From Myxosarcina sp. GI1 (GTDB taxonomy: Bacteria > Cyanobacteriota > Cyanobacteriia > Cyanobacteriales > Xenococcaceae), in NCBI RefSeq assembly GCF_000756305.1, contig NZ_JRFE01000015.1, forward strand, positions 130,238 through 194,237: a DNA stretch of 64,000 bases, given 5' to 3'. Positions 41,721-42,911 of this stretch are shown here, one piece after another. How positions within the stretch are numbered: position 1 is the stretch's first letter; every line of letters begins with the position of its first letter. The notes beneath the pieces are model-generated. The model was not told where the DNA came from and made no database searches. It saw only the letters and a list, made by a program, of their open reading frames with translations. Position numbers and translations under genes: made by a program.

Positions 41721-42911
41721 ATGTACACAATTTTAGATACAGTTAATTTACTCAATGTATCTATTCATAATATTACTGCTAATGAACTACTAGAAGACTT
41801 AAGTGTTAATGGCGGGGTAGTGGTAACTCCTAACGTCGATCATTTAGTTAAATTGCAAAGCGATCTGGAATTACTTAAAGCATATTATCATTCTGACTAT
41901 CGAGTTTGTGATAGTAAAATAATTCAGTATATTTCCTATTTTCTTGGCAGTCCAATTAAAGAAAAAATTTCAGGCTCGGACTTTTTTCCTGCTTTTTGTA
42001 AATATAACCAACACAACGAAAAAATCAAAATATTTTTGTTAGGTGGTAAGCCAGGAGTCGCCCAACAAGCCCAAGTAAAAATCAATCAAAAAATTGGTAG
42101 AAATATTATTGTTGACTCTCTATCACCTTCTTTTGGATTTGAAAAAAACGAACTAGAATGTCAAGAAATCATCGATCGCATCAATGCTTCTCAAGCTAAC
42201 GTGTTAGCAATTGGGGTGGGCGCACCAAAACAGGAAAAATGGATTGCTAAATACAAACATAAGTTAAATAAAATCGATATCTTTTTGGCTATTGGCGCGA
42301 CTATTGATTTTGAGGCAGGTCACAAATCCAGAGCACCCAAATGGATGAGCCAATGTGGTTTAGAGTGGCTTTATCGCCTCTATAGCGAACCCCAGCGGCT
42401 GTGGAAGAGATATTTAGTTGACAGTTTGCCTTTTTTCTGGTCGGTGGGCAAACAAAAGTTTGCTTGCTATCGATTTCCTTACGAACTCAAAATTCAATGT
42501 TTGCCTTTAGGAGAATTATTACAGCAGGCAGGCTTGCTATCATCTAGCCAAATCAGACAAACTTTGCGTCTGCAAGCCAATAGCAATTGTTATCGCTTTG
42601 GTGAATTAGTAGTTCGACAGGGGTATCTCAACTCAAAAACAGTCGATTTTTTTGCCGCTGAATTACCACAGCTAATTGAATTCGACTGTCAACTGCGTTT
42701 GGGAGAATACTTAAATAAAGCGGGATTGCTCGATCGCGACCAAGTTGCCGAGGCTTTAGAATATCAAAGATTAACTGAGAAAAAGTTTGGGGAGATTATT
42801 ATTCAAAAAGGATGGATTAATCTCGTGACTCTAAAATGGTTTATCGAACTACAAAAACAACTGGTACGGGTTGCTAGTAACAAAGAGCTAGAAGTTCAAA
42901 TAGCTAGATAA
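41721..42911 (+). CDS. WecG/TagA/CpsF glycosyltransferase fused to two MshEN-like repeats
   Basis: Residues 1-245 are a GT26 glycosyltransferase: VVVTPNVDHLVKLQ, the SGSDFFPAF segment, IFLLGGKPGVA, VLAIGVGAPKQEKWI, GATIDFEAGHKSRAP and LEWLYRLYSEPQRLWKRY. Residues about 260-390 are an added module with two similar copies of LGExLxxAGLL...QxxxxxxxFGExxxxxG, the pattern of MshEN (GspE N-terminal) domains that bind c-di-GMP in other proteins. The enzyme would transfer N-acetylmannosamine-type sugars to a lipid carrier for surface polysaccharide. Regulation by c-di-GMP is inference. Confidence 0.85.
   Translation: MYTILDTVNLLNVSIHNITANELLEDLSVNGGVVVTPNVDHLVKLQSDLELLKAYYHSDYRVCDSKIIQYISYFLGSPIKEKISGSDFFPAFCKYNQHNEKIKIFLLGGKPGVAQQAQVKINQKIGRNIIVDSLSPSFGFEKNELECQEIIDRINASQANVLAIGVGAPKQEKWIAKYKHKLNKIDIFLAIGATIDFEAGHKSRAPKWMSQCGLEWLYRLYSEPQRLWKRYLVDSLPFFWSVGKQKFACYRFPYELKIQCLPLGELLQQAGLLSSSQIRQTLRLQANSNCYRFGELVVRQGYLNSKTVDFFAAELPQLIEFDCQLRLGEYLNKAGLLDRDQVAEALEYQRLTEKKFGEIIIQKGWINLVTLKWFIELQKQLVRVASNKELEVQIAR

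Follow-up and report, generated by a model that had tools for sequence, protein, structure and literature searches.

The gene at positions 41,721 to 42,911 of the window (the whole stretch of DNA that was analysed, 64,000 nucleotides of Myxosarcina sp. GI1) encodes a protein, P0001, in which a GT26 glycosyltransferase is followed by a C-terminal tail of two MshEN modules. We read P0001 as a surface-polysaccharide GT26 whose activity is set by c-di-GMP on this MshEN tail, and we give this reading a probability of roughly 0.7. It draws on the architecture of the protein, the predicted fold of the tail, the contact and catalytic residues that have been kept, the recurrence of the fusion, and the convergent joining of an EAL domain to related GT26 proteins.

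Catalytic half and MshEN tail of P0001

The features of the gene, in positions of the window, are as follows.

41721..42911, + strand: whole gene, GT26 with C-terminal tandem MshEN (ATG start, 396 aa plus stop)
41892..42413, + strand: GT26 (WecG/TagA/CpsF) domain, residues 58-231 (Pfam PF03808)
42321..42479, + strand: TagA-like C-terminal appendage, approximately residues 201-253 (alignment to TagA 7mpk)
42504..42665, + strand: MshEN module 1, residues 262-315 (PLG..Q, 6-residue spacer, RFG..L)
42696..42854, + strand: MshEN module 2, residues 326-378 (RLG..Q, 5-residue spacer, KFG..Q)

The GT26 identity, which had been proposed in an earlier note on this DNA, was borne out by the Pfam family PF03808 (WecG), which scored 196.3 bits where its cut-off is 27.4, and a second GT26 profile, TIGR00696, was also over its cut-off in P0001 (125.3 bits against 69). 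The AlphaFold model of the whole protein (pLDDT 92.0) was superposed on TagA of Thermoanaerobacter italicus, a GT26 enzyme (PDB 7mpk, chain B), with a Z-score of 25.2 and 1.4 Å over 193 residues, and the two proteins have the fold, the catalytic residues, and the appendage arginines in common. According to the alignment to 7mpk, D64, Q171, and E172 within the Pfam domain correspond to TagA D65, Q167, and E168, T36 just upstream of the domain corresponds to TagA T37, and R219, R226, and R230 of the appendage correspond to TagA R214, R221, and R224. T36, D64, Q171, and E172, as well as the three arginines, are invariant in 25 of the 25 rows of alignment A2, and the position of TagA R83 is occupied by Lys in P0001. 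To judge from these residues and the model, the GT26 half of P0001 looks active. TagA is described as inactive when it is a dimer in solution and active as a monomer on the membrane, and its C-terminal appendage is proposed to fold at the membrane and thereby complete the active site (PMC6493773). TagA has no MshEN tail, and membrane association alone is proposed to control its activity; the tail of P0001 starts directly past the TagA-like appendage.

The C-terminal MshEN-like double repeat that had been noticed earlier is real: the NCBIfam profile NF053729 (c-di-GMP motif, MshE-related) matched P0001 in two stretches with 73.0 bits (cut-off 38 bits, E 1.2e-20). The repeat comprises two whole modules of 54 and 53 residues, that is, four 24-residue motifs, with a spacing of 24-6-24 in module 1 and 24-5-24 in module 2. 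In the whole-genome search, module 2 alone passed the cut-off of this profile (47.6 bits) and module 1 alone remained below it (35.2 bits), and 10 of the 10 rows of alignment A1 (P0001 and nine orthologs) were matched. The profile search for MshEN or T2SSE_N that the earlier note had suggested was positive with NCBIfam and negative with Pfam, where neither whole P0001 nor three pieces of the tail gave an MshEN/T2SSE_N match at E up to 10; a check that used only Pfam would thus miss the tail. The Pfam candidates for the tail (DUF4388, FumaraseC_C, and DUF2949) were weak and under their cut-offs, and they were rejected in favour of the far stronger NCBIfam match.

The tail was modelled alone, from 10 sequences, and the model showed eight helices in two four-helix bundles (pLDDT 91.6), with the helices of module 1 at H8-14, H20-32, H38-44, and H50-65. 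When this model was searched against the PDB using Foldseek, the first 11 of the 24 rows were chains of MshE or PilF GSPII-B with c-di-GMP bound, wild type or point mutants being included, at weak E-values of 1.5 to 4.1 and probabilities of 0.77-0.98. VIA-align placed module 2 on MshE 5htl_B (model residues 69-127; Z 8.6, 2.0 Å, 59 residues) and on PilF 8pdk_B (model residues 69-126; Z 8.5, 1.2 Å, 57 residues), and the tail model scored 6.1 and 6.0 on PilB N-terminal domains, 4.9 and 4.8 on fumarases, which were taken as unrelated, and 2.8 on the non-binding PilF GSPII-A; for small helical bundles, Z-scores under about 13 may reflect merely a common helical arrangement. Since the Foldseek E-values are weak and the Z-scores modest, the case is built on the profile, the fold, and the residues taken together. 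The fold searches with the whole protein were dominated by the GT domain, and the 50 matches listed in each contained neither MshE nor PilF. By prediction, the tail has the MshEN four-helix bundle fold, and the domain assignment is backed by the profile, by this predicted fold, and by the agreement of its residues with the c-di-GMP contacts that have been published.

Module 2 resembles the MshEN domain of Vibrio cholerae MshE (PDB 5htl; PMC5013675) in its 24-5-24 motif and four-helix bundle, and it has the same bundle as GSPII-B of Thermus thermophilus PilF (PDB 8pdk; PMC11731258). The surrounding architectures differ: MshE also has an alpha/beta MshEN_C subdomain and an ATPase, and PilF is a pilus ATPase with three GSPII domains, whereas P0001 carries MshEN_N alone, in tandem, on a glycosyltransferase.

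Residues at the c-di-GMP contact positions

According to Wang et al. (PMC5013675), the Arg at position 1 of the motif stacks, the Leu residues at positions 2, 17, and 21 form the clusters for guanine, the Hoogsteen edge is bound by the Gly at position 3 together with the backbone amide that follows it, and the Gln at position 24 binds ribose and phosphate. In the same paper, a change of MshE G11 abolished binding, isolated MshEN_N bound c-di-GMP at 0.35 µM, and the consensus was given as RLG..L..L..Q. Position 1 was widened to R/K/L by Neissner et al. (PMC11731258), and in PilF GSPII-B, Lys or Leu can replace the first Arg.

We compared positions 1, 2, 3, 17, 21, and 24 of each 24-residue motif. 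Module 2 reads R L G V L Q in its first motif and K F G L I Q in its second, and it keeps both Gly and both Gln at a spacing of 24-5-24. Module 1 reads P L G I L Q and R F G V A L, with the second Gln replaced by Leu. Position 2 of motif II is Phe in P0001, not Leu. Because module 1 has lost a contact Gln, one ligand per chain would be likelier than two.

The same positions were tabulated for 30 tails, 24 on GT26 and 6 without GT26, with repeated copies of one protein (L122, L130, L141, L119, and others) omitted and with L134 and L135 being near-identical. At the four sites, 30, 28, 27, and 26 of the 30 tails have retained the Gly of position 3. Module 2 has both of its Gln in 10 tails, corresponding to 10/24 on GT26 and 0/6 without GT26, and both Gln of module 1 are found in 0/30 in the alignment, in which the column is gapped in L171 and L173; these two align poorly, and by eye a Gln ends both modules of each. 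The decayed tails of L134 and L135 have lost the motif Gly at three of the four sites, and the tail of L134 scores 23.8 bits with NF053729. The tails of L134, L135, and L104 also contain extra, partly decayed repeat units, which suggests module duplication. Judged from these positions, module 2 of P0001 is a good candidate receptor and module 1 a poor one, and the relatives do not all appear to be equal in this respect.

The chief rival to c-di-GMP control, which we regard as rather unlikely, is that the tail is an MshEN-derived protein-protein or dimerisation module that binds no nucleotide and positions the GT26 beside partners, such as an initiating sugar transferase or pilus/secretion machinery. 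Such a module would fit the lack of the second Gln in module 1 and the Ala at position 21 of its second motif, which is present in 21 of the 30 tails; non-binding MshEN relatives have been published (XpsE and PilF GSPII-A), and six proteins of this genome carry the tandem without GT26, one of them with TPR repeats. The published non-binders, however, have changed motif Gly, Leu, or Gln positions, whereas module 2 of P0001 keeps these positions or has conservative changes there. A docking role also leaves unexplained the EAL domain that is found on related GT26 proteins (see below).

Distribution, neighbourhood, and related fusions

The scan of contigs yielded 80 loci that were kept, and the full tail was present at nine of these in addition to the window: three from Pleurocapsales, one from Gomphosphaeria, two from Planktothrix, one from Planktothricoides, and two from Oscillatoriales MAGs. 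Tailed orthologs, including those of Pleurocapsa, Planktothrix, and Gomphosphaeria, are scattered among untailed ones. The orthologs in alignment A1 (n = 9) are 52-69% identical to P0001 over the whole protein, the open tail is kept in all of them, and the invariant residues of the tail include L263, G264, G294, L327, G328, Q349, F356, G357, and W365. Among 386 genomes drawn from the phylum, 61 had a match at E ≤1e-30, and the GT26 ran on into a tail in at least 12 (G000, G033, G045, G109, G116, G119, G129, G135, G151, G157, G159, and G262), where the calls for matches without a fetched locus were made by match span alone. The tailed gene of G119 is split, lying in two pieces approximately 1.4 kb apart (L138).

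A GT-domain tree was constructed from 75 rows, using the best stretch per protein with a GT match at E 1e-75 or below and leaving out subfamily B, the split G119 gene, identical rows, and the partial L137. The tailed rows, 19 in number, fall in different parts of this tree and require at least seven tail changes (gain or loss), read across inner branches that are weakly supported. The AU test is firmer and rejected a single tailed clade by 73 log units (p-AU 0.00054), the tested group having been chosen after the trees were viewed. Subfamilies A and B were far apart in a quick 127-row tree, from which L014, L016, L042, and L137/L146, for example, are missing. Members of the second GT26 subfamily are 34-36% identical to P0001 over the match; its tailed members are L152, L153 (with a shortened tail), and L171 and L173, whose tails are divergent, and it also has untailed members that are up to 61% identical to L152. 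Sequence comparison thus indicates that the GT26-MshEN fusion is recurrent.

The genome contains 38 GGDEF matches and one UDP-GlcNAc 2-epimerase match over the cut-offs, which makes both the signal and a source of UDP-ManNAc plausible. The neighbours of the gene in the window do not resemble an operon for a polysaccharide; judged by eye, they encode a metal ABC transporter, a GH57-like protein, an acyl-CoA ligase, and a sugar kinase. Neighbourhoods were compared over the window and loci L009-L047 by means of BLAST clusters, with seven neighbour proteins assigned by Pfam and the rest by eye. Common neighbours were present only within groups of close relatives (L009/L010/L011, L013/L014/L016, and L015/L017), and the neighbourhood therefore did not identify the glycan. 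No c-di-GMP gene was a common neighbour of the tailed genes in this set. In L015 and L017, the tailed gene is immediately followed by a gene with AAA_31 and an N-terminal part that is Wzc-like by eye, and a relative of this neighbour is found at the untailed locus L042; in L009 and L011, a GT4 gene lies approximately 3 kb upstream (Pfam was run on the L009 copy only). A GGDEF neighbour occurs at one of the nine tailed named loci, L013 of Planktothrix sp. PCC 11201, where a GAF-PAS-GAF-GGDEF protein is encoded two genes upstream of the tailed GT26 (L013:1878-3824), and this gene is absent from the matching flank of the close relatives L014 and L016.

An untailed close GT26 paralog (L002) is present in the genome of P0001 itself (G000), and Gomphosphaeria aponina likewise has a tailed and an untailed copy (L012 and L018). 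The second GT26 of the P0001 genome (L144:3568-4884 on contig C6, the same as L004 and L173) carries a different type of tandem MshEN tail, with 71.8 bits for NF053729, and is flanked by an AAA_31 protein that is Wzc-like by eye (L144:159-2348) and by a very large gene that is NRPS/PKS-like by eye. Six further tandem-MshEN proteins without GT26 are encoded in this genome (L143:1728-2210, L123, L126, L132, L142:2307-3743, and L141:761-2698, on contigs C14, C17, C10, C26, and C6). Four of them are small (approximately 160-196 aa) and two are large, one having TPR repeats, and they are possible c-di-GMP effectors.

A domain of another c-di-GMP-related type was found on the GT26 of genome G296, which is 54% identical to P0001 and carries an N-terminal EAL domain (Pfam 144.8 bits). 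Since the fusion is held by 11 of the 29 genomes of this cyanobacterial family (L140:1900-3354, L176-L180, and L184-L188), it is not an accident of assembly. Both EAL and WecG were matched by Pfam in all four of the 11 proteins that were run; among the 11, that of G401 is cut at a contig edge and that of G390 has two TGA codons inside. The full-length fusion was seen in one of the 386 genomes of the phylum draw, where few candidates were scored per genome. The EAL motifs ExLxR, DDF, and AE bear on binding and catalysis. An ExLxR-type sequence, either EVLLR or EILLR, is present in 11/11 of the aligned domains, the second Asp of DDF is lost in 10/11, and the acid of the AE sequence is lost in 11/11; the latter two losses were likewise evident when L140 was aligned to the EAL domain of PA0861 and to 8pps. 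Judged by these motifs, the EAL domain is degraded and looks like a receptor-type domain.

In three of the 29 genomes of the same family, MshEN, Bac_transf, and GT26 are joined in one polypeptide (L181:427-2118, L182:1178-2812, and L183:1493-3154). The N-terminal MshEN of these proteins, at E 3.3e-8 or better, falls slightly short of the cut-off of 38 bits with scores of 36.8, 36.3, and 33.2, Bac_transf, an initiating transferase, scores 188-211 bits, and the GT26 is C-terminal. No full-length match was obtained among 373 genomes of the phylum draw, and this architecture is thus known here only from the three genomes of one family. The fusion of GT26 to an initiating transferase supports an early, lipid-linked step for the GT26. 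Limnofasciculus baicalensis encodes a GT26-STAS-Bac_transf fusion (L042:2583-4316), in which STAS is another regulatory-looking domain.

Proposed control of the enzyme and its significance

In the function that we propose, the GT26 half would add a sugar, probably of the N-acetylhexosamine type, to a polyprenyl-diphosphate-linked primer at the cytoplasmic membrane, a reaction that would be an early step of a surface polysaccharide, and c-di-GMP on the C-terminal tail would set this activity. Module 2 (residues 326-378) would bind one c-di-GMP, and module 1 would be a half-degraded copy, probably serving as a scaffold or a weak second site. Because the tail directly follows the TagA-like appendage, binding of the ligand would most likely favour the membrane-bound, active state, corresponding to activation at high c-di-GMP. 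Direct c-di-GMP control would best explain why different c-di-GMP-type modules have repeatedly been joined to GT26, and the recurrent fusions, those of EAL with GT26 included, appear to strengthen the link between c-di-GMP and polysaccharide synthesis.

The sign of the effect is fixed by nothing in the sequence, and the tail might instead bind c-di-GMP and inhibit the enzyme or act as a local sink, with polysaccharide synthesis falling as c-di-GMP rises; in the two genomes with a tailed and an untailed copy, one enzyme could then be switched off while the other stays on. This appears improbable to us, since c-di-GMP is said to be a common activator of cellulose and PGA synthases and to activate NfrB as well (PMC8669469). 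That the tail is a chance-preserved fusion remnant with no function in P0001 is scarcely credible. In favour of a remnant, the tail was gained or lost at least seven times on the subfamily tree, and decayed or shortened tails exist (L134, L135, and L153); against it, remnants would be expected to be broken, and the A1 orthologs (n = 9) all keep an open tail with invariant residues.

Control of polysaccharide synthesis by a c-di-GMP receptor on the enzyme itself, which is the reading we prefer for P0001, is established for BcsA and other PilZ-controlled synthases, in which the receptor is PilZ and is located on a processive GT2. NfrB of Escherichia coli, the synthase of the N4 glycan receptor, consists, like P0001, of a glycosyltransferase domain followed by a C-terminal MshEN, binds c-di-GMP with a Kd of 1 µM, and has UDP-ManNAc as its proposed substrate (PMC8669469). 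NfrB is a GT2 that bears signatures of the processive type, and two putative transmembrane helices separate its domains (PMC8669469), whereas in P0001 the enzyme is a GT26 and the TagA-like appendage is directly followed by two adjoining MshEN modules. P0001 does not share the GT2 identity of NfrB, its catalytic domain being GT26, and the NCBIfam equivalog for NfrB gave its best match over residues 322-371, with 19.0 bits against 1170. A glycosyltransferase with MshEN is mentioned once by Wang et al. (2016; PMC5013675). Given NfrB and this mention, the fusion of a glycosyltransferase with MshEN was already known in kind. Among the matches listed in the open-licence literature, neither a GT26 version nor its repeated assembly was found, and none of the papers listed dealt with a GT26 under c-di-GMP control.

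More tentatively, it is possible that cyanobacterial GT26 enzymes have been brought under direct c-di-GMP control repeatedly, by at least four constructions, namely tandem MshEN joined to each of two distant GT26 subfamilies, tandem MshEN of another type, an EAL domain of the receptor type, and MshEN with an initiating transferase and GT26. The early, lipid-linked GT26 step might in that case be a general control point of surface polysaccharide in cyanobacteria, and in the tailed enzymes the receptor would act through the TagA-type appendage, which would gate the transition from the inactive dimer in solution to the active monomer at the membrane.

The synthases that c-di-GMP is known to switch include cellulose synthase and NfrB. 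If the reading of P0001 is true, a receptor on GT26 would put the switch early, on the lipid carrier and ahead of the flippase and the polymerase, which would be a different logic for the control of capsules and slime. In a genome with 38 GGDEF matches, the tailed proteins are concrete candidates for effectors that read c-di-GMP, and the recurrent presence of MshEN and EAL on one enzyme may serve as a natural experiment on how receptors gain control of a catalytic domain.
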